A stretch of 64,000 bases of DNA from Comamonas testosteroni (GTDB lineage Bacteria > Pseudomonadota > Gammaproteobacteria > Burkholderiales > Burkholderiaceae_C), in contig NZ_CP129672.1 in the NCBI RefSeq assembly GCF_030505195.1, positions 1,860,001 to 1,924,000 on the forward strand, written 5' to 3'. This document shows positions 37,798-63,584 of the stretch, piece by piece; within the stretch, counting starts at the first letter, position 1, and each line of letters begins with the position of its first letter. The notes beneath the pieces were generated by a model that saw nothing but the letters and a program-made list of their open reading frames with translations, was not told where the DNA came from and ran no database searches. The translations under genes and the position numbers were made by a program.

Positions 37798-38334
37798 ATG
37801 GCCATGACCCTGAACGACAAGCTCGTCGTCGCCATCTCCTCGCGAGCCCTTTTCGATTTCGAGGAGGAAAACCGCCTCTTCGAGGACAGCGACCCGGCAA
37901 GCTATCTGCGCCTGCAGCGCGAGCGGCTGGACGTGCCTGCCGCGCCCGGCGTGGCCTTCTCGCTGGTCAAGAAGCTGCTGGCCTTCAACGCCGAAGGACA
38001 GCAGCATGTGGAGGTGGTGCTGCTCTCGCGCAACGACCCCGTCAGCGGCATGCGCGTCTTCCGCTCGGCCAAGGCCCATGGCCTGCACTCCATACAGCGC
38101 GGCGTATTCACCCAGGGGCGCGACCCATTCGGCTATCTGCGCCCGCTGGGGGCCCAGCTTTTTCTGTCGGCGAATGCCGAGGACGTGACCCAGGCACTGC
38201 AGCTGGGCTACCCGGCAGCCCATGTGTTCACCGACTCCATGCGCGCCAGCAGCAGCCATCCGCGCGAAGTGCGCATCGCTTTCGACGGCGATGCCGTGCT
38301 GTTTTCCGTTATGTCGATGCATCAAGAACACTAG
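37798..38334 (+). pseudogene. 5'-nucleotidase (PF06189-type), truncated by island insertion
   Basis: The first 170 or so residues are a high-GC 5'-nucleotidase (LNDKLVVAISSRALFDFEEE; VEVVLLSRNDPVSGMRVFRS; LFLSANAEDV) closely parallel to the intact gene at 44643. The homology stops within the catalytic motif RIAFDGDAVLFS, after which eight foreign codons (VMSMHQEH) lead to a stop. The remaining 130 or so residues, including the rest of the HAD-like domain, are not in the window. The product is unlikely to be active. The break marks the left end of the island. Confidence 0.85.
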
Positions 38335-38399
38335 CCATATATTGCCAACATCGGAAGGATCGCTAATAATTCAAATTATTGGAACTTCTTCTTTTATTG

Positions 38400-39740
38400 A
38401 TGCAACATAGCCGTAGCTACTCGGTGAACTTCACGCCTAACGGTGAATTTGCATCGAGGTACCCCGCACTAGCGCATCTCCCCTTCATCTTGGACTCGCG
38501 CCCCAGCTACCACCGGCTAGGTAACGCGTACCTGGTTGAGCGTGGCTTAGGCCTCTGGGGACCAGAGAGTCGGAACCAAGTCCTGACCGGGCGCATCCCC
38601 ACTGCCAAGTCAATGCTCAGTTACGCGCAATGGCTTGCGAATTTCTTAGAGTGGGCAGACAAGCGCAAGGTAGACCTCAAGACATGTGACTACGCCACAC
38701 ATATAGTGGGCCGCTATCAAAAAGAGATGCTTGAAGGCCTCTGGTCACGCGATGGTTACGGCCTCGCACCAAGCACTGTGAATCTGAGAGTTCAACAAGC
38801 GTGCGACTTTTTGACTTGGATGGCAGACACAGGCCAGAGGGTAGTCTTCAAGATTCCGTACGACACTGCAAAGCTGAGAATCGGCTCAGCCACAAGCTCC
38901 ATCGGCCACCTGGGTTTTAACGTCCGTGTACGTAAGGGAAAAGTGCGGCGACCGACGCGTCCTCTGTGTATGCCAACAGATGCGCAGGTGAAAGCGTGGC
39001 TTGAAAGCGTCCATGAAAAGTATGGACAGACTTACGGCCTTATGTGCGAAACGGTCTTGTTTACTGCAATGCGACGCGAAGAAGTCGTATGCCTCCGCCA
39101 CGACACCTTGCCCGAGAACCCCAAAGACTGGCTCATCGCGAACCCACTCGCCCCCCCTGCGCAACAACAAGTTCGCATCACTATCCGATACGGCACAAAG
39201 GGTCCAACCTATGGCCTGGACAATGGGGACAAGATTGGTCCAGAGCGAGACATCTTGATCCCCCTGAGCCTTGCTCAAAGCTGGGATCACTATCGCTCTA
39301 ATGCCCGGAACCAAGCTTTTGCGGCGCGCATGAAACGAGTCAAAGGGGCGGCACGGGTTGCGCTTGCAAAGAGCGCTGTGCACTTATTCCTCCGCGCTTC
39401 AGATGGGATGCAGTTCAAAGGCCCTGAGCTATATAACGCGTGGACAGGAGCCCTGCCTCCCATCAATGGCTGGTCTCCCCACCAGGGAAGACACTGGTGG
39501 GCATGCTCTGTACTTTGGCGAGAGCTGAAGAAGCACCAGCACACGCCGCACTTGAGCAATGAGACTACGGCAGCACTGCTTGAGAACACTGCCCTGAGCA
39601 TCATCAGACTTCAAGTCCAACCGCAACTAGGTCACGCCAACGAAGCTACGACGATGGTGTATCTGCGATGGGTGATGGACATGCTCGCGGTACCGGCCTC
39701 ACTTGAAGACGACGACGAGCCGTCAATAGGCACTAAATAA
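38400..39740 (+). CDS. Tyrosine recombinase 1 of the trio
   Basis: A 446-residue site-specific integrase. Catalytic pattern intact: Arg in FTAMRREEVVCLRHD, HXXR in SPHQGRHWWA, GH in LGHANEATTMVYLRW with the nucleophilic Tyr. The N-terminal core-binding part has LSYAQWLANFLEWADKRKV. ATG 38400 is preferred over a TTG seven codons earlier. Base composition is clearly less GC-rich than the genes to its left. It lies just inside the island boundary and is followed after 12 bases by recombinase 2, preceded by AAGGA. Confidence 0.88.
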   Translation: MQHSRSYSVNFTPNGEFASRYPALAHLPFILDSRPSYHRLGNAYLVERGLGLWGPESRNQVLTGRIPTAKSMLSYAQWLANFLEWADKRKVDLKTCDYATHIVGRYQKEMLEGLWSRDGYGLAPSTVNLRVQQACDFLTWMADTGQRVVFKIPYDTAKLRIGSATSSIGHLGFNVRVRKGKVRRPTRPLCMPTDAQVKAWLESVHEKYGQTYGLMCETVLFTAMRREEVVCLRHDTLPENPKDWLIANPLAPPAQQQVRITIRYGTKGPTYGLDNGDKIGPERDILIPLSLAQSWDHYRSNARNQAFAARMKRVKGAARVALAKSAVHLFLRASDGMQFKGPELYNAWTGALPPINGWSPHQGRHWWACSVLWRELKKHQHTPHLSNETTAALLENTALSIIRLQVQPQLGHANEATTMVYLRWVMDMLAVPASLEDDDEPSIGTK

Positions 39741-39752
39741 GCAAGGACTGAT

Positions 39753-41807
39753 ATGAGTATCCGTACGAACACGAATACGAAGGATCACCTAAGCCAGAGT
39801 GTCACAACACTACACCCTTCACCTGTAGAAGGCTCAACTACTCTGCCTCATGAAAAAGAGGCGCTTCGCTTTTATACAACCCATAAGACTAAGCCCCGCA
39901 TAGTAGATCTCAATGTTTTCAAGACTGGTCAAAGCATTTCTTCAAGCAATGATAGCTGGAAAGAGCCATTTTCCGGCCGACCTGAACTGATAGCACAGCT
40001 TAAACCTGCAATTATCGACCGTGCAATGCCATTAGCACATAAATCGGTGGACCAGATTTTGGCTTCACTGCGTGCATGGTGGCGGATCTTTGATTCAGTC
40101 GAAGCCATGACGGAGGGAACAGCACACCCAATTACTTCAGTTTCCCAAATTACTGACCTGCATCGCCAAGTTGCTTTAGACAGAGGAATTGGGCGATTGG
40201 AGTTCGTCAATTTCTTTCAATTAGCGAACACAACTCGAATTGCTCTAGGATTAAAACCACTGTACTGGCTAGCGCCGTCATCGAAACCTGTCAACCGACA
40301 TCTACCTTCAAAGTGGCAAACCGACGTAATCCGTCAACAACTTAAACGCCACTGGTTCTCTGTGCTTGACCGATGGTCATTGGCAGACGATTTACGAAAA
40401 CAATGTAGCACTGTAGTTGAGCACGACGCAGACCCGGAGACTCACAAGGAGCAACAGCGCCTACTTCGTAATTACAAGTTATTCGACTCGGTTGTAGAGA
40501 AAACTGGCGATCCGCGACCATCAGTTAGTTCGTTACTGCAGGGGGTTTCCGCCCAGACCTTCTATGAACAAGGCTTCAACTACAGCGATATGCTGTGCGG
40601 CAGCTATCCTGACAGCTTCGATATCCGCGTTGCTTTTCATTTATGTATGGCCACCACTGGCTGGAATCCCGCAGTCTTACTAAGTCTTGATGTCACGACT
40701 TCAATTATTGAAAAGCATCCAAAAGACCCAGGGCGATACATTCTCCGCGGAACAAAGGCTCGGACCGGTGGGGCCGAACAACTCAGCGAAGGGCTGCTAA
40801 AGTCCCAAGGAAGTGCAGGATTCATCATACAGGCACTAATAGCCCGAACGAAGTCGCTTCGTGAGTCTTTGATTAATGACCTGCATGTGTACAAAGCGAG
40901 TTTGGCAGAAATGAAAAGCACGTCGCACACAGCGGTCGAACTTGAATTGATGCGCATACATATCACATCTCTAGAGCAGGGAACAAAATCCCCTTGGATT
41001 TTTGTAAAAAAAAATGGTGATGATATTCTTTGGCTGACCGACGAAAATTTCTCGGAGGGTGTGTATAAAAAAGGCATCGGTTACCTTTCTTTTATCGGGA
41101 AATTCATCGCAGATCTTAATTTAAATAGACCTAAAGAAAATCAATTATCACCGCTTCGAGCATCGGACTTCCGTGACGCCTATGCAGCAACACAATATCA
41201 CGCAAGCGGAGGTTCAATTCTCTATGTGATGAAGGCTCTAGGCCATCGCAGCATTAGATCAACTCAAGGCTATCTGAACAATACATTGCTGAATGATGAA
41301 CATCAAAAACTGTTCGGGACATTCAGCGAAGCCCTTTGGAGCGAAATAGCGACCCATCAAAGAGTTGACCCTACAATTATTGCTCAGCGGTCACGCTACG
41401 GCAGCATAACTCCAGAGCACCGTAAGCGTTTACAGGATTACCGAACGCTGATGCGAAGCCGGGTTGGTATTGCCTGCACAGACCCCACAAACCCTCCACG
41501 TCACATCGCCCCCGACTTCGTCGCTGACGGGAAAGCAATGTGCCATGTCCAACGTTGCACACTCTGCCTAGAGAATGCCGTCCTCCTTCCCGATAGCCTT
41601 CCCGGCCTTTGCAAGAGGTTAGCTGAGCTGCGGTATCTGCGATCGAGAATGAGCGTAACTGCGTTCCAAGAATCTTCATTTTTAAAGGAGTTGGACAATA
41701 CAGAGCTTGCACTAATTGCCTTCGACGCTCAAGAATCTACGCAATTGCTTGAGGAATGGGAGCGACGCATTGAAAGCGGAGCACACCGAGTCATTGAGTT
41801 TGATTAA
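39753..41807 (+). CDS. Tyrosine recombinase-like protein 2, degenerate active site
   Basis: A 684-residue protein in the position of TnpB of Tn554-like elements. The C-terminal catalytic fold is recognisable (LSPLRASDFRDAYAATQYHA and MKALGHRSIRSTQGYLNN with the Tyr), but the first Arg is replaced in TGWNPAVLLSL and the box-II His is absent. The C-terminal end has a Cys/His cluster (KAMCHVQRCTLCLENAV). It may act as an accessory or DNA-binding subunit. AT-rich for this genome. Confidence 0.75.
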   Translation: MSIRTNTNTKDHLSQSVTTLHPSPVEGSTTLPHEKEALRFYTTHKTKPRIVDLNVFKTGQSISSSNDSWKEPFSGRPELIAQLKPAIIDRAMPLAHKSVDQILASLRAWWRIFDSVEAMTEGTAHPITSVSQITDLHRQVALDRGIGRLEFVNFFQLANTTRIALGLKPLYWLAPSSKPVNRHLPSKWQTDVIRQQLKRHWFSVLDRWSLADDLRKQCSTVVEHDADPETHKEQQRLLRNYKLFDSVVEKTGDPRPSVSSLLQGVSAQTFYEQGFNYSDMLCGSYPDSFDIRVAFHLCMATTGWNPAVLLSLDVTTSIIEKHPKDPGRYILRGTKARTGGAEQLSEGLLKSQGSAGFIIQALIARTKSLRESLINDLHVYKASLAEMKSTSHTAVELELMRIHITSLEQGTKSPWIFVKKNGDDILWLTDENFSEGVYKKGIGYLSFIGKFIADLNLNRPKENQLSPLRASDFRDAYAATQYHASGGSILYVMKALGHRSIRSTQGYLNNTLLNDEHQKLFGTFSEALWSEIATHQRVDPTIIAQRSRYGSITPEHRKRLQDYRTLMRSRVGIACTDPTNPPRHIAPDFVADGKAMCHVQRCTLCLENAVLLPDSLPGLCKRLAELRYLRSRMSVTAFQESSFLKELDNTELALIAFDAQESTQLLEEWERRIESGAHRVIEFD

Positions 41808-41827
41808 AACTCGCAAGAGAATAATCA

Positions 41828-44092
41828 ATGAATAACTTAGTTAAATTGGAACTCAATACCGATCCTTCCGAAATATTCGGGAGAGATTACGAGATAGAGG
41901 CAACCCGCAATCGTGGTTTACTGCTCATGCCGGTCCACTCCATTCAACACGCCGATGCCGCTCAACTCATCGCATTGCAACGGATCTTGCAGCACGGCGA
42001 TACATTAGGCAGATGGGTAACTGCTGATGCATGGGTTCCTTCGTCAAAAAAGAGCTCTGCGTTTTTGTCAATCGACATACGTCGACGTATCGTCCATTTC
42101 TTGCCTGCACATCTTCAACGCCTAGCGAGCGATGAAGATCTGACGAGTCATCGCGTTCATCATTCAATCGCGAAGTACTTAGACGAGGCTGTGCTCAAAA
42201 TAACACGTTATTTGGTGCTTTTGCGTATTGGCCCGGTGGGCCGCGGAAAAAAGGGAGCCCAGCGCACACTTGACCCAAATTCGATCATCTATATTGGCTA
42301 TAGCATAGCGCCAATTATTTTCGCGCTAGCAATTGCATCGTCCTTTGATACGAAAGGACAACCAACAGCCGACAGCATCTCTTTCCGATCGCTGCGTACG
42401 GATGATCTATCTGCACTTTCAGAGAGTCAAAAAAGGCAAGTGCTGGCAGAGTGGCTGCGTATGAAGGAGCTCGTGGATCGAGGACTGTGGACGGATGCAC
42501 CCAGCATACAGACGGAAACTAGCACGATTGCGATGACCGGAGGCCTTCGCTACACAGTAGAGCCGCGAAAGGTCGTTAGTCATCAACCCCTACCTGACGA
42601 GTATGTTTCAGAAATGGGTCGTCACAGTCTTTGGCTCATGCGCGTGCTTCTCCCGAACCTGCTTGACATTGGAAAGGCAATAGCTGACCTTTACTCGGAA
42701 AAAGGCAGCAATGGAAAGCCCCAAAAAAATATAGTCAGCAGCTGTGCTAGAAAGGTGCGAAAGCTACTCTCTACCTTTCGTTGGCTCGACCAAGAAGGCC
42801 AAGAATTTTACGCACTTCCCTTCTCGCTGCGTCGACACAAGCTGCGCAGTGAAACTAAATCAGTAAATGGTCGTAATGTTGAAACAGAGGCGTACTGGCC
42901 ACCAAAAAGTCTTTCAGACGTGATGGGATTGCTCGGGCTCGTGCAAATGGCACACTATTTTATAGTCAGCCTCAGTATGGGAGCCCGCCAATCTGAGGTA
43001 CTAGGACTACAAAGGGATTGCGTCGTACGTTCAGTTGACGGGAGACGCTACGCAAACGGTAAAACCTACAAGCTCGTGGAACGACACGGCGGCGAGTGGA
43101 GGGACTGGCAATTACCAGAGGCAGCAGTCGAGGCACTCGCTCAGCAGGCACTGCTCATTGAGACTGCTATGCGGATCGCTTATTTCAAAGTGCAGCGGGA
43201 TACCGATATAGACGCCGTTAGCTCAGGCACGCATCTCTGGGGACAATTAAATGCAGGGAACACTAGTGACCCGGCGAATTCGTCCTTCGAAATCAATTCA
43301 GCATTGCGAGCATATGCGCATGCGATCGGATTGAGTACTGAGCCCGGTGGGCAGCCTCTCCGATCGCATCGATTCAGGAAGACACTTGCACGTCTCGTGG
43401 CTTTAGCCTTGACACAAGCTCCGAAGTTGTTGATGGATGTGTTTGGTCATAAATCCATCGAAATGACGCTGTACTACATCCTCTCCGACAAAAATCTTCG
43501 TGCCGAAATCGAGACAGTGGCACGTGAGTTGCGCGTAATGCGTGCTAAGGAGGTGGTCGAACGTATGGTCGAGGCGGACTTGGCTTCTAAGGGAACAGAA
43601 AGTGCCGACTTAGGCGGCTATGGAGGACTTGCCGCGGTATCACTGCAGAACGTCATCAGAGAGAATCGTGATCGAGCACACCGTCAAGGTGCCCAATGGG
43701 GTGCGAACGACGTTGGAGAATTGGCCGAGTTGCTGACGTTGCAAGGCAAAGCATGGGAGCAAGTCAGAACAGGTGTGCTCTGCACCAAATTTCCTGGTGA
43801 AGTGGGGCCCTGCAGCAAGAGCAAAGGGCGTCCCGAACCCTCGAAGTGTCAGATCAGCTGTAACCATCGGCTGGAAGAAGCCTTCCTACGTGAGGACGTT
43901 GAAGGTTCGATTCAAGACGCAGTAGCAGCTTATGAAGCTGCAATTGCCAATGAGGAAAGCCTGACTGCCGCTCACTGGGCCGCACAGGTACGCGCCCATG
44001 TCCCGCGTTTTTCTGACCTGCAGGCGAAGTGGATGCTCAACGAGACCGTGCGGGAGTTGTTCGCCGACGAATTGGACAAAGTGGTCGAATGA
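41828..44092 (+). CDS. Tyrosine recombinase 3 of the trio
   Basis: A 754-residue integrase with a complete motif set: Arg in LSMGARQSEVLGLQRD, HRFRK in LRSHRFRKTLARLV, GH and Tyr in VFGHKSIEMTLYYILSD. A C-terminal Cys cluster (VLCTKFPGEVGPCSKSKG followed by CQISCNH) suggests a metal-binding module as in recombinase 2. Its stop overlaps the start of the small coiled-coil gene (ATGA). Confidence 0.85.
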   Translation: MNNLVKLELNTDPSEIFGRDYEIEATRNRGLLLMPVHSIQHADAAQLIALQRILQHGDTLGRWVTADAWVPSSKKSSAFLSIDIRRRIVHFLPAHLQRLASDEDLTSHRVHHSIAKYLDEAVLKITRYLVLLRIGPVGRGKKGAQRTLDPNSIIYIGYSIAPIIFALAIASSFDTKGQPTADSISFRSLRTDDLSALSESQKRQVLAEWLRMKELVDRGLWTDAPSIQTETSTIAMTGGLRYTVEPRKVVSHQPLPDEYVSEMGRHSLWLMRVLLPNLLDIGKAIADLYSEKGSNGKPQKNIVSSCARKVRKLLSTFRWLDQEGQEFYALPFSLRRHKLRSETKSVNGRNVETEAYWPPKSLSDVMGLLGLVQMAHYFIVSLSMGARQSEVLGLQRDCVVRSVDGRRYANGKTYKLVERHGGEWRDWQLPEAAVEALAQQALLIETAMRIAYFKVQRDTDIDAVSSGTHLWGQLNAGNTSDPANSSFEINSALRAYAHAIGLSTEPGGQPLRSHRFRKTLARLVALALTQAPKLLMDVFGHKSIEMTLYYILSDKNLRAEIETVARELRVMRAKEVVERMVEADLASKGTESADLGGYGGLAAVSLQNVIRENRDRAHRQGAQWGANDVGELAELLTLQGKAWEQVRTGVLCTKFPGEVGPCSKSKGRPEPSKCQISCNHRLEEAFLREDVEGSIQDAVAAYEAAIANEESLTAAHWAAQVRAHVPRFSDLQAKWMLNETVRELFADELDKVVE

Positions 44093-44619
44093 AGAAAACA
44101 TCAAAGCCAAAGCGAACCCACTCTGTCGATGCTATTGAGCGCATGCGCTCAGCAGCGCTGGCACGTTATGACTCACAGGCCGCACAGTCTCATGAAAGAG
44201 TTCGCCACGTAATGCAAGCCATCCAACAGGAGATGGCCGCCAACGAAGGCATCTACCCCCATAACAAGGGCGCAGTTTCGATGGCGGAGGTCGCACGACG
44301 CGCAGAAATACATCCCCTTACTTTTCACAAGCCGCGCTATCTAGAGCTCGGCAAGGAAGTAAAGACATGGCTTGAGACATTGAAGCAAGGTGCGGTCGTT
44401 GGTCAAGGTCGGGTCCGCAAAGAACTGGGGACCCGAATCCAGGAATGGAAGAAGCTATATGAGGACTTACTTGAGACTCACCGCATTAGCGAAACTGATC
44501 TTCAGTACGCGGAAGCCAGGCTCAAAGAAGTTCTTTTGGAGAACGAGCAACTACGTCAACAGCTTTCGCAGCAAAAGACATTGAAAGTTGTCCCGATACG
44601 TCCAAAAAAGCCTGACTGA
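44089..44619 (+). CDS. Small coiled-coil accessory protein of the recombinase cluster (TnpC-like)
   Basis: A 176-residue basic protein. N-terminal part with a possible helix-turn-helix (VSMAEVARRAEIHPLTFHKP), C-terminal long coiled coil (about 110-165, heptads in LQYAEARLKEVLLENEQLRQ). Position after three recombinases and small size match TnpC of Tn554, which aids transposition. ATG 44089 is coupled to the preceding stop. Assignment is by layout; sequence similarity could not be tested. Confidence 0.6.
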   Translation: MKKTSKPKRTHSVDAIERMRSAALARYDSQAAQSHERVRHVMQAIQQEMAANEGIYPHNKGAVSMAEVARRAEIHPLTFHKPRYLELGKEVKTWLETLKQGAVVGQGRVRKELGTRIQEWKKLYEDLLETHRISETDLQYAEARLKEVLLENEQLRQQLSQQKTLKVVPIRPKKPD

Positions 44620-44642
44620 GATTTCAATGTAAAAGGTATAAA

Positions 44643-45575
44643 ATGGCATATCCAATTGAAAAAAAGCTAGTTGTTGCCGTCTCGTCCAGTGCTCTTTTCG
44701 ACCTTTCAGAGTCACATGCGGTCTTTGTCGAAAAAGGCCCTAAAGCCTACAAAGAATTTCAGGAAGCCAACCTGGACAAATTTCTCGGGAAAGGGGTTGC
44801 ATTTCCATTTGTTCGGCGCTTTTTGAATATCAACAAGCGCTTCCCGAAGCAATCACCTGTCGAGGTGGTTCTCTTGTCTAGAAATTCTGCAGCCACCGGA
44901 AAAAGAGTTTTTCGATCCATTTCTCACTACGGCTTAGATATCTCACGAGCTGCGTTTATGGAGGGGAAATCACCCTACGAATACATCCCAGCCTTCAACG
45001 CGTCATTGTTTCTATCTGCTAATGAGGAAGACGTAAAAAATGCCATTAGCAGTAAGTACCCAGCTGGCATTGTTTTACCGAGTACAGTCATCGATGACGA
45101 ATCCGAGGACGAGCTTCGCATCGCATTCGACTTTGATGGCGTGATCGCCGATGACGAATCTGAAGCGGTTTTCAAAGGCAAGGATCTTTCAGCGTTTCGC
45201 GACTATGAAGTTGCAAACGCACACATTCCTCACAAGCCAGGCCCTCTGGCCGACTTATTTCAAAAGCTCTCATTCATGCAAAAACTTGAAGACAAAGAGC
45301 AGGAGAAGAATCGAGATTACAAACGCATCATTCGGACCGCCATAATTACCGCAAGAAATGCGCCATCCCATGAACGTGTTATTACCACGCTGGAAGATTG
45401 GGGAGTCAGCGCAAATGAGACCTTCTTCTTAGGTGGAATGAAAAAAGATCGAATTCTTGCTCGGCTAAAGCCACATATGTTCTTCGATGACCAGAAAAGT
45501 CACCTTGAATCTGAGGCAGGAGACATACCGATGGTTCATATTCCATTTGGAATTGCAAATAAAATCATCGAATAA
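44643..45575 (+). CDS. 5'-nucleotidase, intact second copy carried by the island
   Basis: A 310-residue protein whose first half aligns along its length with the truncated gene at 37798 (KLVVAVSSSALFDLSES; PVEVVLLSRNSAATGKRVFR; LFLSANEEDV) and which continues through the catalytic DFDGVIADDESEAVF and a HAD-type end (FLGGMKKDRILARLKPHMFF). It would hydrolyse nucleoside monophosphates in the cytoplasm. Lower GC and diverged sequence show it is not a recent duplicate. It sits directly behind the recombinases. Confidence 0.88.
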   Translation: MAYPIEKKLVVAVSSSALFDLSESHAVFVEKGPKAYKEFQEANLDKFLGKGVAFPFVRRFLNINKRFPKQSPVEVVLLSRNSAATGKRVFRSISHYGLDISRAAFMEGKSPYEYIPAFNASLFLSANEEDVKNAISSKYPAGIVLPSTVIDDESEDELRIAFDFDGVIADDESEAVFKGKDLSAFRDYEVANAHIPHKPGPLADLFQKLSFMQKLEDKEQEKNRDYKRIIRTAIITARNAPSHERVITTLEDWGVSANETFFLGGMKKDRILARLKPHMFFDDQKSHLESEAGDIPMVHIPFGIANKIIE

Positions 45576-45597
45576 ATGCCTTCTGATATTTATTTTA

Positions 45598-45666
45598 CTA
45601 GAGTCCTGATTCCCCAAGCTCACGGCCGTAGCCAGATCGCTTGATGCCGCCGAACGGTAGCTCAGG
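45598..45666 (-). pseudogene. C-terminal remnant of an aldehyde dehydrogenase
   Basis: The frame reads PELPFGGIKRSGYGRELGES then GL and a stop, the conserved C-terminal motif of succinate-semialdehyde and related aldehyde dehydrogenases. Nothing else of that gene is present. It runs into, and overlaps by a few bases, the stop codon of the RES gene on the same strand, marking an old recombination joint. Confidence 0.7.
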
Positions 45667-47017
45667 AACCGTAGTGGCGATCATTGATAGAGGCAACACC
45701 GTCCACTGTATGAGGCTTACTGAAATAGCGCACAGCTGATATGTCGTGAATGACAATCGAGTCCTGCACCAGCGACAGCGCCGGTTGCACTTCACGCTGA
45801 CTAGGCCACATCGCGGCCCGGCTGATGAAATGTATGGAAGGACGGAACCTGCGGCCCGGCCCGTCCTCCTCGTATTCCCACAGAGAGATCTCGGCAGTGT
45901 TGCCGTCTCCATCAGAGTTGCTCACATCACACGCTTTGCGGAACAAGACGACGTTATCGCCAGCGGGGAGCTCACCTGGAATGCGACTTTGTGCAGATGG
46001 ATAGATGATGCCGTCTACATTCAACGTCGCATGGGCAGCCAGATAGTCCGCAACGGCCTGTGTGACAAGGTAGTCCCGATCCTGTTGTTCAGGAACCACG
46101 GGCGCTGATAAGCGGTCACCCAATGTCCTCAGGAAATCGCGACGCTGCGCCGCTAAGAGGGTATCTGGATCAAACAAACTGGCATTCGGGCGCAGCTCAA
46201 CGGTAGCCAGTCGCCGCAGATCCAATAGGCGCAGCGGCCGAATCACATCAAACGCGGCCAATGCGATCAAGCTCCCCACAGGCGGTCTCACCTCGGCAAT
46301 ACAGATCTCAGGATGGGTGGCTCCGTAGAAAGCAGGTTGACCCTGCCCATTCATTCGTCCTGCAGCTCCGACACCTACCGCCGGCGAACCTAGAAAACGC
46401 TCTGGCCAACGTAGCGCGGCAATCAACGCATCCTCGGTTTGGAACACTCTGCCCCGGTAGAGCGTCTTCAATGAAGTGCCGGGACCAGCTTCAAGGACAA
46501 CCGAACGCCCCTCCTGGTCTTGATCATTGGTGATCTCGCCAAAGATCATGTCGAGCAATGCCAGCGCCTTGGGGTTGAAGTAGCGCACCTCACTACGCAG
46601 GCTGTCTTCCATCTCGCGCCAAGAGAAACCGAGTGGCTCGGCCATTGATGGCTTGAGGACGAACCAAGGATCGTCGTCGCCATAGCGAGACTGTCCTGAC
46701 CCCTCGTCGTACCAAAGCTCGCTCAGGTGCTCCACCACAACTTCGACTGCATCCTGCGGTATGCCAGTCAGCTCCGAAATCGTTGTCTGCAAGTCGCTGC
46801 CGGCAGGAGTTCGCCCGAAATGAATCACCGCCATCGTGTTGCTGGATTCCTCGAAAAACGTATCGATCACTTTTTCGCACAGTTCAGCTACCACCCATAG
46901 GTCTGCTGCCGGTGCATCGACATCGCAGAACTCGCAAGAATTTTCAGACGTTGCAGCGTCTTGTACCAGACACTGTAGATGTGGCTCCCCAACACAATCA
47001 GCACATATATAGCTCAT
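45662..47017 (-). CDS. HEPN/RES N-terminal domain and RES-domain protein (copy 1)
   Basis: A 451-residue protein. N-terminal zinc ribbon (YICADCVGEP to SCEFCDVD), an acidic helical HEPN/RES N-terminal domain (about 40-170) and a C-terminal RES domain (about 195-360) with its conserved Arg in LYRGRVF and the signature AFYGATHPEICIAEVRPPVG. RES domains of toxin-antitoxin systems degrade NAD. No Xre-type antitoxin is adjacent. ATG 47017 (MSYICADC) is preceded by a run of ten G. A second protein of the same layout is at 49245. Confidence 0.75.
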   Translation of the reverse strand: MSYICADCVGEPHLQCLVQDAATSENSCEFCDVDAPAADLWVVAELCEKVIDTFFEESSNTMAVIHFGRTPAGSDLQTTISELTGIPQDAVEVVVEHLSELWYDEGSGQSRYGDDDPWFVLKPSMAEPLGFSWREMEDSLRSEVRYFNPKALALLDMIFGEITNDQDQEGRSVVLEAGPGTSLKTLYRGRVFQTEDALIAALRWPERFLGSPAVGVGAAGRMNGQGQPAFYGATHPEICIAEVRPPVGSLIALAAFDVIRPLRLLDLRRLATVELRPNASLFDPDTLLAAQRRDFLRTLGDRLSAPVVPEQQDRDYLVTQAVADYLAAHATLNVDGIIYPSAQSRIPGELPAGDNVVLFRKACDVSNSDGDGNTAEISLWEYEEDGPGRRFRPSIHFISRAAMWPSQREVQPALSLVQDSIVIHDISAVRYFSKPHTVDGVASINDRHYGS

Positions 47018-47020
47018 ACG

Positions 47021-47030
47021 CCCCCCCCCC
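47021..47030 (-). promoter_or_regulatory. G10 tract at the ribosome-binding position of RES gene 1
   Basis: Ten consecutive G (minus strand) end four bases before the ATG. It stands in for the Shine-Dalgarno sequence, and it would be inside the coding frame if a TTG just upstream were the start. Homopolymers of this length can slip. Confidence 0.5.
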
Positions 47031-47344
47031 AAGCAGTTCGCCTAGATCATCATTTGATAGAACTATGACATGACCTCGGCGAAATACAGTGGTCGCTGAA
47101 TAGCCAACATGCAGAGATGCAATTTGAGCAGCCGCTTCGGATCGAACAACGACAGTCGCTGTTTGGACATTAGCAGTCTTTGAAGGTAGGGCCCCTGGGC
47201 AGAAGACCCTGCCTTACTGTCCTAGTTACATCCGACCGATCCAGCTCCAACTGCCTGCCTTAGAACGCAGACCTTAGAGCTAGCGTGATCTATCGGGAGA
47301 AGGGGCATCGGCTAAACACACTAAGTGCTCATGCAAGAGTTATC
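47031..47344. other. Spacer between RES gene 1 and padR
   Basis: About 310 bases with no ORF or family I recognise. It must hold the promoters for both divergent genes; no clear -35/-10 was found. Confidence 0.3.
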
Positions 47345-47370
47345 ATCGAATTTCGATATCGAAATTCGAT
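47345..47370. promoter_or_regulatory. 26-bp perfect palindrome, PadR operator candidate
   Basis: ATCGAATTTCGAT is followed at once by its exact reverse complement, with no spacer, ending at the base before the padR ATG. It occupies the ribosome-site position of padR, so a bound repressor would block the operon directly. PadR proteins commonly autorepress through such dyads. Confidence 0.7.
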
Positions 47371-47700
47371 ATGACAGATAAACCAACACCAAGCACACTA
47401 GAGCACCACGACCTTCTGTCTGGGTTTATTCGCCTGCATGTGCTGCACCATGCTGCCGAACAGGAAATTTATGGGCAATGGATGATCGACGAGCTGGCTC
47501 ATCACGGCTACCGCCTGTCTCCTGGAACGCTCTACCCGATGCTGCACAAGATGGAGCGGGACGGCTACCTTGTCTCGCGGCAGGAGCGCGAAGGGCGCAC
47601 GGTGTGCAAGCTCTACACGATCACGACCAAGGGCAAAGCAGGCTTGGCGCTGGCTAAGGAGCGCATCCGGGAGTTCGCCGGGGAGGCAATGCACAAATGA
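47371..47700 (+). CDS. PadR-family regulator of the chromate transporter
   Basis: A 109-residue PadR winged-helix repressor: IYGQWMIDELAHHGYRLSPG, then TLYPMLHKMERDGYLVSRQE and the beta wing TVCKLYTITTKGKAGL. PadR genes beside chrA are a known arrangement. It overlaps chrA by four bases (ATGA). No Shine-Dalgarno is visible because a 26-bp palindrome abuts the start, suggesting autoregulation and perhaps leaderless translation. Confidence 0.88.
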   Translation: MTDKPTPSTLEHHDLLSGFIRLHVLHHAAEQEIYGQWMIDELAHHGYRLSPGTLYPMLHKMERDGYLVSRQEREGRTVCKLYTITTKGKAGLALAKERIREFAGEAMHK

Positions 47701-48926
47701 CCGATTCCACCAACAGCTTGTCGCACGAAACCACTCCCGCGCGGGGTACGACTGCCGAAGTCTTTGGCGCCTTTCTCAAACTGGGCCTGACCTCCTTTGG
47801 TGGACCCATCGCTCACCTAGGCTATTTTCGATCGGAGTTTGTCGAGCGCCGCCGCTGGCTGGATGACCGCAGTTACTCCGACCTGGTAGCCCTGTGCCAG
47901 TTCCTACCGGGACCGGCCAGCAGCCAAGTCGGCATGGCACTGGGGCTAGGCCGCGCAGGCTGGTCTGGATTGCTGGCAGCCTGGGCGGGATTTACTTTAC
48001 CGTCTGCTATTGCATTGATCCTGTTTGCCTTCGGCATCGCCGAATACCAGGGTCTGGCTCAGTCTGGCTGGGTACATGGACTCAAGGTTGTCGCCGTGGC
48101 CATCGTGGCACAGGCTGTATGGGGTATGGCTAAGTCACTGTGTCCGGATCGACCCCGTGCTGCACTCGCAATTCTGGCAGCACTGCTGACCATGATCTTG
48201 CCCTCGGCGCTGGGACAGGTTGCCGCCATCGCGGTGGCGGGGTTGCTGGGGTGGTGGCAATTAAAGATAGCTCAACCTGGCGGTGGTCAGGCACATAGCT
48301 ACCCGGTTTCGCGCAAGCTAGGCATTGTTGCACTGCTGTTGTTTGCTGCACCGCTCGTCGGATTGCCATTGTGGGCAGCAGTCACGGGCTCGTCCACGAT
48401 AGCTCTGCTTGAAGGGGTATATCGTTCCGGCGCGCTGGTCTTCGGCGGTGGACACGTTGTCTTGCCACTGCTGCAAGCTGCCGTGGTGCCGAGCGGCATT
48501 GTGAGCAATGCCGACTTCTTGGCTGGCTACGGTGCAGCGCAGGCCGTGCCAGGACCACTTTTCACGTTCTCGGCCTACCTTGGTGCAGTCGCCCAGGGCC
48601 CGCTGCACGGCTGGGTTGGTGGTCTAGCGCTGCTGGCCACTATCTTTCTCCCCGCCTTTTTCATGCTGATAGGAGCGTTGCCATTCTGGGAAGGGCTGCG
48701 TCATCGCGCTGGCATTCAAACAGCCATGGCAGGTATCAACGCCGGCGTGGTCGGCATTCTGGTATCCGCACTTTATGACCCGGTGTGGACGAGTGCCATC
48801 CATAGCAAGGCGGATTTTGGGCTGGCATTGCTGTCATTCGGACTATTGACTGTGGGGCGGGTTCCGCCAGCACTAGTGGTTCTGCTGGCCGGGCTGTCTG
48901 GCTGGGTCATGGCGATGGGCATCTAA
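47697..48926 (+). CDS. chrA: Chromate transporter ChrA
   Basis: A 409-residue CHR-family membrane protein with two homologous halves (LKLGLTSFGGPIAHLGYFRS and GALVFGGGHVVLPLLQA) and the motifs FLPGPASSQVG and GAAQAVPGPLFTFSAYLGA. It exports chromate, driven by proton motive force. Ten to twelve transmembrane segments. Translationally coupled to padR; chromate resistance genes of this type are frequent on islands and plasmids. Confidence 0.94.
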   Translation: MTDSTNSLSHETTPARGTTAEVFGAFLKLGLTSFGGPIAHLGYFRSEFVERRRWLDDRSYSDLVALCQFLPGPASSQVGMALGLGRAGWSGLLAAWAGFTLPSAIALILFAFGIAEYQGLAQSGWVHGLKVVAVAIVAQAVWGMAKSLCPDRPRAALAILAALLTMILPSALGQVAAIAVAGLLGWWQLKIAQPGGGQAHSYPVSRKLGIVALLLFAAPLVGLPLWAAVTGSSTIALLEGVYRSGALVFGGGHVVLPLLQAAVVPSGIVSNADFLAGYGAAQAVPGPLFTFSAYLGAVAQGPLHGWVGGLALLATIFLPAFFMLIGALPFWEGLRHRAGIQTAMAGINAGVVGILVSALYDPVWTSAIHSKADFGLALLSFGLLTVGRVPPALVVLLAGLSGWVMAMGI

Positions 48927-49244
48927 AACATACTTCACAGCAGACAGCCAAACAAGCCATGCCAATGTCGGCTTTGGGTCGATCTCTGCCAGTGGACAGA
49001 TCAAACAAGCCGGCCAACTCATGAGGGAGAGCGATCATGATGGATGCCGACATCGCAATGTTGACTTGGCTAGCAGCAGCCGGCTTGGGTTGCGAGGAGA
49101 CTTGAGATTGACACCTTCACTTTGATAGGCTCAACGGTCCATCGCTATGGCGACGGTGCAGGAGTCGCTGAACAAACTTGTTGGCCATCGTGAGAGTGAG
49201 GTACACGGGAGCACTGGCTACGTTGCCAGTGCCCTGCAAGTTAC
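48927..49244. other. Spacer between chrA and RES gene 2
   Basis: 318 bases between convergent genes. A 22-codon frame (49037-49105) and a 33-codon frame are open but lack convincing support. No terminator was identified. Confidence 0.3.
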
Positions 49245-50546
49245 CTAGATTAAGTTCAGGCGCCTACGCGACTCGTCGCTCATGAACATGTCGTAGATAT
49301 GACGACACTCACGGGCCCTGGTCTCAATCGCCGTAACTTGGTGATATCGGATAGAGCCGTGAACAACCATCACCTTGGTGGGCGGCTTGGATGGGTTGTC
49401 CATGTCGACTGCCACTTCAACAGGTACGAGCCCATCGACAAGTCTGTCTTCATCGGGCCCAGCCGGTATAACGTATGCGAGTCGGCTGGCCTCGGGGAAC
49501 AAGACGACGTTGGTACCCGCCTCGCCCGTCTGCACGGACGGGAAAACTAGGCCGTCGACCTGCCGACCGAAGCGCATCCGAAGGTACTCGAACACCACCT
49601 GGGTGGAAAGATAACTCAGCTCATCATTTCGAGCTTTTGGCCTGGACATCTTTTTGACCAGTGAGCCTAGGAATACTTTGAGGTGCAGCGCTTCACGACA
49701 TCCCACGTCCAGGAGCGACAGATCTGGGGGGGCAACCCGGTCCAGCGCTGTGAGGTCAAGCAGCTTTAGCTCAGCGACCGGAGTCAGTGCCGCGCTCACT
49801 ACATGATCGCCGGTAATGGAGCGGATTTCGCTCAAGCAGGTCTCTCGTTCCAGCGCGCAATAGAGGGCAGAAATGCCATTCGGCGTCATTCTTTGACTGC
49901 TCGCCAGAAACTTCGGCGTGGGGCCGAACTCGCCAGCGGGGTTTTTGACTATCTTCTCCGCTTCGCCCAAGCCTTTGGCAAGACGCGCACGGTACATCAA
50001 ATTTCCATTGGTCATGATCCGGATGGCTTCAGGTTTGAGGCCTTCGTCATCGGCGACCAAGAAAGAGAAAACCAAGTCGAGGAAGTCTTTGGCTTTCCCG
50101 TTGAAGAAGCGGTGCGTGTACTGCACGCCCTCAACGAACTTCTCCCAACGAGCCTCGTAGAGGTTCACCTCCATCGCGTCGTCTTCGCCATAGAAGTGCG
50201 TAGGATCGCCCGCATCATCCACCCTGAATTCGTCGGGAACTCCATTACACAAGTCATCGAAATATGGATCATCTCCAAGATCAAGCCACTCCGAGAGGAC
50301 GATGCCGATTTCCGCGATAGGGAATAGTTCGACCCTAGCTCCGTACAACATGCCGAGCTCATAATCAGAGAGATCATCCTTGACTGCGATATTCTCCCTA
50401 ACTCGCTCATAGACATACTCAAATAGCCGCTGGGACTCAATTGCCCTCCCACGTTGGCGGCAATACTTGCAGTCACCTTCCTGCCCATGTGCATCGAACA
50501 GCTTCTTGAGGGGTACCGGCGTAACACACTCAATACAAATCATCAT
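49245..50546 (-). CDS. HEPN/RES N-terminal domain and RES-domain protein (copy 2)
   Basis: A 433-residue protein with the same layout as copy 1: zinc ribbon (MICIECVTPV to GDCKYCRQRG), helical HEPN/RES N-terminal domain (about 40-160) with many acidic residues, and a RES domain (about 190-360) with LMYRARLAKG as the Arg-containing motif and ISALYCALERETCLSEIRSI. The two proteins are diverged, so not a recent duplication. ATG 50546 is preceded by AGGAAG. Predicted NAD-degrading toxin or defence effector without an adjacent antitoxin gene. Confidence 0.72.
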   Translation of the reverse strand: MMICIECVTPVPLKKLFDAHGQEGDCKYCRQRGRAIESQRLFEYVYERVRENIAVKDDLSDYELGMLYGARVELFPIAEIGIVLSEWLDLGDDPYFDDLCNGVPDEFRVDDAGDPTHFYGEDDAMEVNLYEARWEKFVEGVQYTHRFFNGKAKDFLDLVFSFLVADDEGLKPEAIRIMTNGNLMYRARLAKGLGEAEKIVKNPAGEFGPTPKFLASSQRMTPNGISALYCALERETCLSEIRSITGDHVVSAALTPVAELKLLDLTALDRVAPPDLSLLDVGCREALHLKVFLGSLVKKMSRPKARNDELSYLSTQVVFEYLRMRFGRQVDGLVFPSVQTGEAGTNVVLFPEASRLAYVIPAGPDEDRLVDGLVPVEVAVDMDNPSKPPTKVMVVHGSIRYHQVTAIETRARECRHIYDMFMSDESRRRLNLI

Positions 50547-50709
50547 TGCTTCCTGCAAGTTCTTCTTATGAATGGCTGAGGCTACCGGCTTCGAAATCTT
50601 GGCTGCTCGCGAAAACCCAAAAAAGCGGCAACTGATTGCACGGTGTCCTTAAGGTAACCTCTATCAGAAACTATTTGAACTGATATTTTTGGGAGGTGCC
50701 GAGCCACTT

Positions 50710-52044
50710 ATGTCCGCAGAATTATCTCTTGTCGCAGCCCTCCAAGCGTTGTGGGACATCCCTCCCCCCGGTCCAGAGAACCTCTGGGGCAGCCGCGAGT
50801 TCATCGCAGTGAAGGAACTGCTCATCAAGCACTACCACAACGGAAAATCCACCTTCGGACTGGAAGTTTCCATCGGCAATGCCTTAAGGTCGCTCGGCCT
50901 GCGATACAGCATCCCACATCTGCCCACGCAGCCCGGGCTGGAGCTGAGCCAGGTGGCCTCCGCACTAGTTCACGAGTTTCAGCGGACCACCATCAGGCGG
51001 CGATACCTCTGCCCGCTAGATATGGCCGATGACCTTCCGCCCCTCCTGTTTGGCAATGCGAAGTTGGGTCGATTCACCGCTGCTGAACTAGAGTGCTTAT
51101 TTGATGCGCCTCGCTTGGAGCGCTGCTTTCCGGACATCCGGCTGGATGTCTTGCGTCTGTCCCAATTTCATTGGCTGGTCATTGAGGAAGACGTTTCGGT
51201 TCGAGGCGAATCGGGCAATCGCCAGTTCTCCTTTCTGGACTTTCCCATGAACAAGGATCCAGGTGAGATTGTTCCCCATGGCGGGCGTTTTCCCGCGGTA
51301 GTCGAGCGAGCGCTGTTCCTCCTGCTTCTGGCGCCATGGGAGGCCTGGTCAGAGATGCCTGAGGTGGACTGGCGAGGCTTCCAGATACCTTGGATCTACA
51401 CCCTAGACGATGACCTATGTACTTTTCCGGCTCCACCACCTGCTCCCAAGCGCCTGTCGTGGGAGCCATACCAACACCAGGTGGATCATGACGAATGGGT
51501 GGAATCCGAGCGCCCGTTGTGTCTGCGAACCTTCGCAACCGCCGAGGATATCCGCCAGGATCTAGATAGCTGCTGGGCAAGGCTACAGGTGCCGAGCACG
51601 CTGAACTCGGACTTGTTCTCTACCCCAGTAGAGCACTTCCTAGTTCGTGCGTTCCTTTCCGATGGCATCGATGAAGTGATGGCCCACCTTATCGTGATCG
51701 AAGCCGCCTTTGGTACAGAAGCTGACCACAAGAAAAAACTGCGACTTCCTGGCGACAGTTATGCAGAATCGGCAACACGCAGAGTCGCGGCAAGGCTAAG
51801 CGCCGCCATAGGCAAACCGGGCGCGGCAAAGGAATACCTGGATCTGTACGACATGCGCTGCACCTACATTCATGGGCGTCATGAAGGCCGCATCATCTCA
51901 ACCCAGCAGCGTGTCTTGGCTCGTCGCCTAGCCCGGGAAGCGACAAACGCTCTGGTCGACCTGGCACAAAAGACGCAGCTTCGCGAAAACATCCTCCTCG
52001 ACTTACTCAATCAAGGGGTCGCGAACCTCCCACCCAAGACCTGA
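50710..52044 (+). CDS. HEPN-domain protein of unknown role
   Basis: A 444-residue protein. The C-terminal 120 residues form a helical HEPN-type domain with the RX4H RNase signature in DMRCTYIHGRHEGRI, preceded by FLVRAFLSDGIDEVMAHLIV, as in ApeA-like proteins. The N-terminal 300 residues are unrecognised. A GGGAGG ribosome site lies 13 bases before ATG 50710. It precedes the OLD/helicase pair by 150 bases on the same strand, so it may be a third component of that defence locus; this is inference. Confidence 0.6.
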   Translation: MSAELSLVAALQALWDIPPPGPENLWGSREFIAVKELLIKHYHNGKSTFGLEVSIGNALRSLGLRYSIPHLPTQPGLELSQVASALVHEFQRTTIRRRYLCPLDMADDLPPLLFGNAKLGRFTAAELECLFDAPRLERCFPDIRLDVLRLSQFHWLVIEEDVSVRGESGNRQFSFLDFPMNKDPGEIVPHGGRFPAVVERALFLLLLAPWEAWSEMPEVDWRGFQIPWIYTLDDDLCTFPAPPPAPKRLSWEPYQHQVDHDEWVESERPLCLRTFATAEDIRQDLDSCWARLQVPSTLNSDLFSTPVEHFLVRAFLSDGIDEVMAHLIVIEAAFGTEADHKKKLRLPGDSYAESATRRVAARLSAAIGKPGAAKEYLDLYDMRCTYIHGRHEGRIISTQQRVLARRLAREATNALVDLAQKTQLRENILLDLLNQGVANLPPKT

Positions 52045-52194
52045 CCATACGGCCAAGCCAACAGACCACAATCCACATCAAAGCAAGCCTTGAACGAGGG
52101 CTTACGGGGGTCTAGTTCCAAGAATTGAACAGTTAGACGCCGTTGACGAAGTCGATACTGCCAAAACATAAATATCGAATGAAGGAAGAAGCGT

Positions 52195-53763
52195 ATGGGA
52201 ACGATTCGGCGACTGGTGCTCAAGAATTTCAAGCGTTTCAAATCGCTTGAATTGGAATTCGATCCGGAGCTCAACATCCTGGTTGGCGGCAACGAAGCAG
52301 GAAAGAGTTCAGTGCTTCAAGCAATGGACATTGTGCTAAGCGCCAGTCGAAGCAAGGTCGAGGGCATGGGGCTTGAAGCGCTATTCAACGCTGACTGTAT
52401 CGCTGAGTTTCTTGCGGGCGCCAGGAAAATCGGCGATCTGCCCGAGTTGCATATCGAGCTCTATTTTGATGATCTTCCTGGTCGTCACGACCTAGATGGA
52501 AGGAACAATAGCAAGGGCGTCGACCACCTAGGCATCAAGATGGTGTGCAAGCCAGTCGACGATTTCACAAAGCACATCCAAGCCATCCTTACGGAAAAGC
52601 ACGATAACTTTCCATTCGAGTACTACGGAATAAGCTTTCTGACTTTTACGGACGAGGTTGTCTTTCCTTACAAGAAGCCGTTGCGGCACCTGCTGATTGA
52701 CAGCTCACTAATCAACAACGAGCACGCCACGCGCGAGTACACGCGTTCAATGTATGCCGCGCATGCGAGTGTTGCTCAGCGCAACCTGCACGGCTTCGAG
52801 TACAGAAAGGCGAAAGCGAAGTTCAAGGATGACGTTTTCAAGTCGATGAACGACGAGCTGGATGCATACAAGTTCGATGTTAGAACCAGTCCAAAGGCCA
52901 GCGTCGAGACCGACATCATCATTACCGAGGACGACATACCGGTGGACAGCAAGGGCAAGGGCCGCCAGTGCTTCATCAAGACGGAGTTCGCGCTGCGTAA
53001 TCGGGAGCATGCGCTACACGTACTATTGCTGGAGGAGCCGGAGAACCATCTCAGCCAGGTGCATATGCGCAAGTTGATCGAGCGTATCCGTGCCTCTGCC
53101 AAAAAGCAGCTTTTTGTGGCCACGCACAGCAGCTTCATCGCTACGCGGCTGAATCTCAGGAAGGTTCTGATTCTTAGTGAAGAACATCCGTCGCGACCAG
53201 CCAGCTTGAAGGATCTCAGCCCGGGAACCGCCGAGTTTTTTATGAAGGCGCCCGACAACAACGTCCTGGAGCTGGCTTTGTGCAAAAAGGCGATCCTAGT
53301 CGAGGGCGACGCCGAGTTCATCCTGATGGAGGCTCTCTACAAAATCAGTGCCCCGGAGGGAAGTCTGGATGCCGATGGCGTCCATGTGATCTCGGTTGAT
53401 GGCACTAGCTTCAAGCGCTACCTTGAGCTTGCCAACCTCCTTGGCATTAAGGTGGCGGCGATCCGCGACAACGACAAGGACCATGCGGCCAACTGCGTCG
53501 CGAACTACTCTGACCACGTGTCGGCTTCGATCCAAGTCTTTGCGGATCTCGATAACAGCCGCCATACCTTCGAGGTCTGCATGTACAAGGACAATCAGGC
53601 GGCCTGCGAGGAGCTTTTCGCGGCTCGCCGCAAGACCCTGAGCGTCGAAGAATACATGTTGAAGAACAAGACCGACGCCGCATTCCAGCTGCTGGAAAAG
53701 AAAGGCTCCGCGCTGGTAGCCCCAGGCTACATCCAGCAGGCAGTGACATGGATAAGAGCGTAG
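52195..53763 (+). CDS. OLD-family ATPase-TOPRIM endonuclease (Gabija GajA-like)
   Basis: A 522-residue protein: ABC-type ATPase (about 1-340) with Walker A GGNEAGKSSVLQ, Walker B HVLLLEEPENHLS and the His switch FVATHSSFI, then a TOPRIM nuclease (about 360-522) with Glu in AILVEGDAEFIL and the DND in AAIRDNDKDH. OLD class-2 proteins of this size paired with a UvrD-like helicase are the Gabija anti-phage system. Its 3' end overlaps the helicase start by 16 bases. Confidence 0.85.
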   Translation: MGTIRRLVLKNFKRFKSLELEFDPELNILVGGNEAGKSSVLQAMDIVLSASRSKVEGMGLEALFNADCIAEFLAGARKIGDLPELHIELYFDDLPGRHDLDGRNNSKGVDHLGIKMVCKPVDDFTKHIQAILTEKHDNFPFEYYGISFLTFTDEVVFPYKKPLRHLLIDSSLINNEHATREYTRSMYAAHASVAQRNLHGFEYRKAKAKFKDDVFKSMNDELDAYKFDVRTSPKASVETDIIITEDDIPVDSKGKGRQCFIKTEFALRNREHALHVLLLEEPENHLSQVHMRKLIERIRASAKKQLFVATHSSFIATRLNLRKVLILSEEHPSRPASLKDLSPGTAEFFMKAPDNNVLELALCKKAILVEGDAEFILMEALYKISAPEGSLDADGVHVISVDGTSFKRYLELANLLGIKVAAIRDNDKDHAANCVANYSDHVSASIQVFADLDNSRHTFEVCMYKDNQAACEELFAARRKTLSVEEYMLKNKTDAAFQLLEKKGSALVAPGYIQQAVTWIRA

Positions 53764-54779: not shown

Positions 54780-54838
54780 GTACCTCCACAACACATGCTA
54801 AGCGAAGGATTTCAATTTCACGTAGCCGCAGTGTCAAC

Positions 54839-55309
54839 TCAACGCTTACTAACTTCCATAGTCGTCACTACAGACCGATTGGCTTGGCTGAGACTGTTGA
54901 GGTTCACAGCAAAGCCATAGATGTTGTGCAGAGCTAAGACAACGCCACATGATCGCGAATAGCCGCCTTCACAATGCACGACCACGCTCCTGATCTCCGG
55001 CGCTAGAGCCCGCACAAATGCATGAATTTCTTTCGCCTGTAGGGGCGAAAAACCGTCCTTGATTTTTGCCTTCGCTCGCGCAGAAATCTCCGTATTCAAA
55101 AAATCGACGTCGGCAAAGCTCAGCCGCAACAGCTGGCTAAATCCATGTACTTCTGCAGGAGCTCGCTCAGGAGCAGTGATCGAAATCATCGCCACTGTGC
55201 TGAGCGGCGGAAGTTGTTCTGCCACCCTTCTCGAAACAGCAATTGCCTGACGAACGCCTGGTGGTGGTTTGTAGAGAAGATCGATGACCTCTCGCAGGGA
55301 TTGACCCAC
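54839..55309 (-). CDS. Cysteine-dependent protein phosphatase (dual-specificity-like)
   Basis: A 156-residue protein with the CX5R phosphatase loop HCEGGYSRSCGVV (about 112-124), and an upstream Asp (FADVDFLN) that could be the general acid. Such small phosphatases occur in phages and defence regions. A GTG start is used: GGAG lies seven bases upstream. It converges on the helicase gene across 59 bases. Substrate unknown. Confidence 0.65.
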   Translation of the reverse strand: MGQSLREVIDLLYKPPPGVRQAIAVSRRVAEQLPPLSTVAMISITAPERAPAEVHGFSQLLRLSFADVDFLNTEISARAKAKIKDGFSPLQAKEIHAFVRALAPEIRSVVVHCEGGYSRSCGVVLALHNIYGFAVNLNSLSQANRSVVTTMEVSKR

Positions 55310-60096: not shown

Positions 60097-60099
60097 TGC

Positions 60100-60351: not shown

Positions 60352-60434
60352 GGTGTTACTCCTTCAGAGTTGCTCGCAAAAGGTATGGGGTCGGACGCGC
60401 CTGCCCAGTTGATCGAGAATTCATGCTCGGGCCG

Positions 60435-60626: not shown

Positions 60627-60698
60627 GATGCTTCCTTCCTGCAGTGAGAGTTAACTTGGGCTGCTGCGCCCCGCAACGATGCGCATTGGTTTCTCGGC

Positions 60699-61006: not shown

Positions 61007-61021
61007 GGTGTTCTCTGTATA

Positions 61022-61948: not shown

Positions 61949-61952
61949 CAGC

Positions 61953-63559: not shown

Positions 63560-63584
63560 ACTTGATCTTCCTTTTGCGCTGGAA

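Follow-up and report, generated by a model that had tools for sequence, protein, structure and literature searches.

Can a genomic island that inserts into a conserved enzyme gene spare its host by bringing an intact version of that gene? The question is raised by a window of 64,000 nucleotides (the whole stretch of DNA analyzed) from Comamonas testosteroni, equivalent to G000:C1:1860001-1924000 of the host genome G000 (6.08 Mb, two contigs). Here a gene of the PF06189 5'-nucleotidase family is cut by an integrated element that encodes three recombinases, a small protein and, directly behind them, an intact and diverged gene of the same family. The reading that we prefer, with a probability of about 0.62, is that an element of the type of the islands known as GInts inserted into the nucleotidase gene, having switched target, and that it carries a rescue gene free of the insertion site and probably co-transcribed with the recombinases.

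A nucleotidase gene in two pieces

The host genome holds three PF06189 matches, which span about positions 1-170 (5' half), 1-302 (the complete copy) and 170-300 (3' half) of the profile. The features concerned are:

37798..38307, forward strand: 5' half of the native PF06189 gene, up to a point just past HAD motif I (FDGDAVLFS)
38308..64000 in the window and on to G000:C1:1931939 (window-equivalent 71939): integrated element of 33.6 kb, left end GTTATG at 38308
44643..45575, forward strand: intact, diverged PF06189 5'-nucleotidase of 310 aa, starting 24 nt behind the small open reading frame (ORF)
G000:C1:1931940-1932347 (window-equivalent 71940-72347): 3' half of the native PF06189 gene, with the profile match 170-300 at G000:C1:1931937-1932320

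The initial annotation described the high-GC gene at 37798 as ending abruptly after its catalytic motif, and profile coverage agrees: the ORF at 37798-38334 matches about 1-170 of the 302 positions of PF06189 (E 4e-61), as opposed to 1-302 for the gene at 44643. The eight residues that close this ORF (VMSMHQEH) are encoded by the element. The right end, which lay beyond the annotated view, is located at G000:C1:1931939/1931940, and the 3' half expected to the right of position 64000 is present there, separated from the 5' half by 33.6 kb in the same genome.

Aligned with its five nearest relatives, which are 95-99% identical to it on either side, the host has native DNA as far as TTTTCC(G), at window 38307/8, and again from (G)ACGAG onward. 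Alignment of the DNA places the junction between GTGCTGTTTTCC and GACGAG; one G is shared or ambiguous, and otherwise no base of the target has been lost or duplicated. The right end of the element reads ACATA plus six nucleotides (GTCCTT), followed by native GACGAG. The attL and attR sites have only short similarity; the terminal inverted repeat with six variable nucleotides is clearer. Base composition changes across the ends, from 66% G+C in the left flank and 61% in the right to 54% in the element (50% in its last 500 bases); the native halves have 66%.

Both native pieces remain open frames. The cut falls at FDGDAVLFS / DEAE, which leaves motif I in one piece and motifs II-IV in the other. 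Since the insertion parts motif I from the rest of the catalytic set, the native enzyme should be destroyed, and both pieces are probably inactive.

Relatives carry the gene uninterrupted, as the initial annotation anticipated. Exactly one match was found in 30 of 36 other genomes of the genus (29 full or nearly full length, one partial), with none in the remaining six, and the halves of the split gene abut on the relatives' sequence. A PF06189 match is present in 46 of 53 genus genomes, among which G000 alone has more than one, and in 371 of 399 genomes in the family-wide search. One metagenome protein, labelled Comamonas sp., shares 80% identity with a stretch of the native half.

A misjoined assembly could also yield two gene halves and an additional copy from a single family, or these might represent an unrelated arrangement of paralogues. 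We consider this extremely improbable, given that the chromosome contig is 5.9 Mb long, that the halves abut exactly on the sequence of relatives, that the element ends match those of six other elements, and that the chimeric protein recurs in metagenomes.

Recurrence of the insertion

The 119-aa part of the chimeric left protein was used as a query, full-length native proteins being excluded by length, and the best 120 of 493 matches were scanned by script. Among these 120 are three metagenome proteins of 178 aa (P0241, P0242 and P0243) that have different native parts and an identical VLFS-VMSMHQEH tail. Because the same tail follows different native parts, at least three other native genes carry this element end in the same position; thus, the target recurs. 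Another protein (P0246), a 191-aa nucleotidase fragment, switches precisely at this point to a foreign tail of its own (CQVPPGYKHA), which may come from another element inserted there.

Within the genus, family and class sets of reference genomes, the nucleotidase insertion was seen in G000 only, and no other PF06189 gene split near profile position 170 was found in 369 class genomes. The family listing was incomplete, so 19 of its genomes were re-examined (15 with two matches, four selected for a copy-type gene or for a match that was partial or weak); they contain extra copies, indels or contig-end fragments, and no second case of a split gene plus copy. One genome, G784, was considered as a second split at the same point and dropped: both pieces lie at contig ends, with an overlap of 3 nt, and GinA has no match in that genome. 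Integrase 1, searched against plasmids, returned six distant records, tblastn of integrases 2 and 3 against plasmids returned one distant record each, and no element with gin genes next to a nucleotidase was found in viral contigs. The expectation that a unit of recombinases and nucleotidase would stand at broken genes elsewhere thus holds in part: the same junction occurs in three metagenome genes, and no second locus with gin genes and a nucleotidase copy was reached.

The carried copy

The initial annotation described a complete, diverged copy of lower G+C content, and all three properties are borne out. The match spans profile positions 1-302 (E 4e-129), the G+C content is 45% compared with 66% for the native halves, and protein identity to the native pieces or to relatives' genes is 39-45% (42-44% to four aligned genus genes). 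The HAD catalytic residues are invariant with those of 22 other aligned members, with DxDxV, TAR, K and DD conserved. No PDB structure related to the copy was found at E 0.001. The copy belongs to the FDFDGVIADDESE subfamily, which is diverged at the insertion site; members from many bacteria are 78-97% identical, among the best 120 of 7,982 matches, scoring having covered the 7,999 closest candidates. Where the element inserts in the native gene, the corresponding DNA of the copy agrees with the native site at 9 of 18 positions, compared with 14 of 18 for a comM consensus that we wrote out (comM is treated below). With so little identity the copy is probably not a target, and so probably immune to insertion at its own site.

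A full-length PF06189 protein at least 53% identical to the copy occurs in 4 of 398 other family genomes among the matches listed (sorted best first), and in none of 52 other genus genomes. At these base rates, chance co-occurrence of the copy and the cut gene is unlikely.

PADLOC labels the copy as phage-defence candidate PDC-S08. Here a second explanation has to be weighed, in which the copy is ordinary cargo, a mobile accessory nucleotidase that serves in nucleotide metabolism or phage defence, and its match to the cut family is coincidental. Consistent with this are the PADLOC label itself, the Gabija pair elsewhere in the element, the very varied cargo reported for GInts (PMC5385486), and the occurrence of PF06189 genes on plasmids and in an Escherichia coli region that also encodes an integrase, a restriction system and an anti-phage sirtuin. 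The PDC-S08 model, however, fits three ordinary single-copy chromosomal PF06189 genes about equally (L024, L010 and L033; E 4e-128, 7e-132 and 7e-128), so a role in defence cannot be read from the label. As the above counts indicate, few family genomes have a close relative of the copy, and coincidence explains neither why it stands directly behind the recombinase operon nor why it belongs to the family of the broken gene. We regard ordinary cargo as unlikely, while the most serious of the competing explanations.

The recombinase operon

Motifs of tyrosine recombinases are visible in three long ORFs inside the cut, as first annotated:

38379..39740, forward strand: integrase 1 (GinA position), 453 aa, tyrosine recombinase with R232, K274, H368, R371, H419 and Y428
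39753..41807, forward strand: integrase 2 (GinB position), 684 aa, with Asn at the expected first catalytic Arg
41828..44092, forward strand: integrase 3 (GinC position), 754 aa, weak Pfam Phage_integrase match, R-K-HxxR-H-Y present
44089..44619, forward strand: small TnpC/GinD-like protein, probably 176 aa, overlapping integrase 3

The small ORF was listed from a GTG at 44029 (196 aa), and the ATG at 44089 is more likely to be its start. Its TnpC label comes from the initial annotation and its likeness to GinD follows PMC5385486. Pfam Phage_integrase is reached by the third ORF only, and below the curated cut-off. Integrase 1 has the full R-K-HxxR-H-Y set. In alignment, the Arg I position is Asn in integrase 2 (22 of 22 rows) and Arg in integrase 3 (22 of 22 rows); integrase 2 keeps the R, H and Y downstream of the missing Arg I. 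The genes of the operon and the copy are tightly spaced. A weak promoter-like site lies at 38342-38370; in a promoter scan of the region, such sites were not above those in shuffled sequence.

In gene order the element resembles the GInts of Bardaji et al. (2017; PMC5385486), which have a four-gene recombinase operon at the left end, cargo behind the fourth gene and site-specific insertion. Three tyrosine recombinases and one small protein likewise form a probable operon at one end of the window element, and its cargo begins at the stop codon of the fourth gene. The six-nucleotide exchange proposed for GInts is similar to the six-nucleotide variable stretch found here. GInts are further described as having a short AT-rich 3' end and imperfect flanking direct repeats of 10-17 nt, and as excising in circular form with all four genes required. 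Two differences stand out. In type GInts, GinA and GinB keep RHRHY and GinC lacks the first Arg, whereas here that Arg is missing from integrase 2 and present in integrase 3. The authors also expect the target not to be completely inactivated, while the window element cuts its gene through the catalytic core. The word nucleotidase has no mention in the main text of PMC5385486.

Also similar in gene order are the elements called SEs, which are described as encoding an ordinary integrase, a recombinase-fold protein with an incomplete catalytic set, a large integrase and a small auxiliary protein, with a 6-bp footprint. They are reported only from Gammaproteobacteria and as distinct from GInts in sequence. 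Their second gene lacks the catalytic motif and their third has RHRY; in the window element the second lacks Arg I and keeps R, H and Y, and the third has the set. Because GInts lack Arg I in GinC, and SEs have the incomplete protein second, we call the window branch GInt-type rather than a canonical GInt. This is the most likely assignment, made by gene order and motifs, with the type proteins of Pseudomonas stutzeri DSM 4166 compared by description.

Tn554 shares a small TnpC, a fixed target and a 6-nt footprint with the window element, and differs in having two recombinases plus TnpC (PMC10214605). A precedent is RME, the recA island of Vibrio cholerae, which according to PMC4405046 lies inside a conserved gene and carries a complete, divergent copy of that gene; its excision and the function of the copy were tested experimentally. 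RME differs in its phage integrase and XerS-like recombinase, its 9-bp inverted repeats and the gene concerned. Carriage of a divergent copy of the cut gene is already known from RME (PMC4405046). As far as our literature searches show (the uup target described below was outside them), what is new is the replacement strategy in a three-integrase element, the nucleotidase target, the site shared with comM and the contrast with the comM-cutting relatives, for which no copy was found. No account joining GInt, comM and genomic island was found in that literature, nor a nucleotidase in the listed papers on GInts and integration sites, an absence that is no proof of being unpublished. We know of no copy of its target gene carried by Tn554.

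A site shared with comM

A GinA alignment scanned against a species-genome collection (84,980 genomes) yielded 28 loci with GinA 38-62% identical, and upstream ORFs were examined in 18 of them. Six loci (L034, L037, L038, L040, L042 and L044) cut comM (PF01078) at profile position 112, in the stretch coding for Walker B. The 5' ORF was confirmed by Pfam in five of the six, and both halves, about 10-55 kb apart, are present in all six genomes. The window host has an intact comM. Other targets are a RarA-like AAA protein (L039 and L060) and an HI0933-like protein (L054).

The end structure is common to the window element and the six at comM. All seven have GTTAT at the left end, and all seven have CTATA, ACATA or ATATA at the right, followed by six variable nucleotides and then GAYGAR. 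The ends co-vary: where the left end reads GTTATGT, as it does in three elements, the right end has ACATA. The nucleotidase site reads GTGCTGTTTTCC/GACGAG, and the comM sites read GTGCTNTT (five of six) or GTATTGTT (L038), then GAYGAR. The nucleotidase and comM sites look like one recognition motif in unrelated genes. Five further exact GTGCTSTTNNNNGAYGAR matches in the host are all unoccupied, so the target is set by more than this 18-mer. Elements that cut comM are spread over several branches of the integrase tree, in which the window element clusters, at modest support (72-74), with one of them and with one uncharacterized element. That the target changed from comM to the nucleotidase is a plausible, unproved reading.

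How the copy may serve the host

We propose that the element integrates site-specifically between the native sequences named above, via a six-nucleotide staggered exchange as proposed for GInts (PMC5385486), and that the cut would inactivate the native nucleotidase. The copy, drawn from another subfamily and diverged at the site, stands directly behind the recombinase genes, where read-through from the promoter of the interrupted gene, or a promoter before integrase 1, could express recombinases and copy together. The host would then keep a nucleotidase for as long as the element occupies the native gene. In a type GInt, published reverse transcription PCR shows that ginABCD are co-transcribed, outside transcription enters the island and read-through into cargo is likely (PMC5385486). 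Compensation by the copy is suggested by its family match, completeness, position and diverged site.

Alternatively, the copy may have no selected role and have been picked up mechanically, for instance when the element excised imprecisely from a different nucleotidase gene in a former host. Both element and copy have a lower G+C content than the host, and such elements exchange short flanking sequence on excision (PMC5385486), which fits this explanation. It is nonetheless improbable, as the copy is complete with reading frame and motifs intact, lies at the recombinase side and not beside the right end, and is diverged at the insertion site.

Several observations count against compensation or against a general rule of replacement. 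Some members of the genus do without PF06189: there is no match in 7 of 53 genomes, five of the seven at 99% completeness. PF06189 is absent from all 28 related loci (7-21 kb of DNA each; a positive control worked), a result that counts against a general rule and likewise against ordinary cargo. In the genomes of 19 of the 28 loci, 15 have PF06189, as a single intact gene in 14 and as one intact gene plus one in two pieces in G078. Accessory PF06189 genes do occur on plasmids and beside defence genes, with no annotated three-integrase operon there, and 17 regions of 4-20 kb that surround other PF06189 copies, selected mostly for closeness to this one, contain no gin genes. The complete element that cuts a nucleotidase gene has been read once; P0241-P0243 are known from chimeric proteins, with the cargo side unseen. 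Finally, no intact comM match was listed in any of the six genomes with comM-cutting elements, at least two of which are metagenome-assembled genomes (MAGs), with 130 of 143 and 130 of 147 candidates scored in G067 and G071. Replacement is thus not built into this machinery as a general rule.

The proposal in the initial annotation, that the island spares its host by bringing a replacement, therefore survives in a narrower form. The cut gene, the intact copy with its HAD residues and the recurrent junction agree with it; rescue is a conditional reading for this element, and the comM elements speak against a wider rule.

If correct, this reading yields a rule, open to testing, for the entry of islands into the interior of conserved genes, and it connects one branch of the three-integrase elements with a DNA motif common to unrelated genes (the nucleotidase and the comM Walker B stretch). 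It also urges caution, in that a nucleotidase listed as a phage-defence candidate may stand near defence genes for another reason.

A possible second case at uup

ORFs upstream of and behind the recombinases were compared in 23 loci and the window; flanks are short in several loci, about 5 kb lies behind the operon in most, and two of the 23 (L035 and L036) look like the same element. No upstream-downstream pair was found in 21 of the 23, with one match each in L045 and L055, of which that in L055 is genuine. The similarity in L045 (43 aa, E 9e-5) was rejected, having no family support and comM being intact on the other strand.

In L055, a Dechloromonas MAG, the fragment before the element belongs to uup (31 aa 65% identical to the copy; Pfam ABC transporter with ABC_tran_CTD). 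A diverged Uup (504 aa to the contig end) is encoded on the same contig, 2.8 kb behind the small ORF and on the opposite strand. An element in an Azonexus MAG (L058) is 91.5% identical to that of L055 over the 4,981 bases compared and has the same uup position. In the Azonexus genome (G1219), native uup has its 3' half on a different contig, and the end of yet another contig codes for 54 residues that are identical to the L055 copy. Among the matches listed, G000, G074 and G076 have one long Uup match each at 55-61% identity, the next long match being at most 42%.

Both genomes are draft MAGs, and only one of them has the copy and the recombinase genes on a common contig. The Dechloromonas MAG (G1218) also contains uup in uninterrupted form, perhaps because the population is mixed. 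With draft contigs, this uninterrupted allele and a copy on a separate contig in G1219, the elements that split uup in two Rhodocyclaceae MAGs are a possible, not proved, second case of replacement. A broader idea is offered tentatively, as somewhat more doubtful than not: that multi-integrase elements repeatedly offset the cutting of a useful gene (the nucleotidase; uup in two Rhodocyclaceae) with a site-free diverged version, while sisters that cut the dispensable comM carry none, so that the rescue gene would help to set the target range and allow changes of target.

Other cargo

Behind the nucleotidase copy the element carries:

45662..47032, reverse strand: RES-domain protein
47697..48926, forward strand: chromate transporter, PF02417
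49245..50558, reverse strand: RES-domain protein with a weak HEPN/RES N-terminal match
52195..54779, forward strand: Gabija-type pair (GajA 52195-53763, GajB 53748-54779)
56020..57285, forward strand: HipA-like protein
57772..60096, reverse strand: P-type ATPase with a heavy-metal-binding domain

Beyond position 61000 are copper genes, encoding CopD, a multicopper oxidase, a response regulator and a CusS-like kinase. In L004 a multicopper oxidase (3585-5549, minus strand) has a long Gly-Met-Ser/Thr repeat at about 4220-4390, which is read by Pfam as collagen-like.

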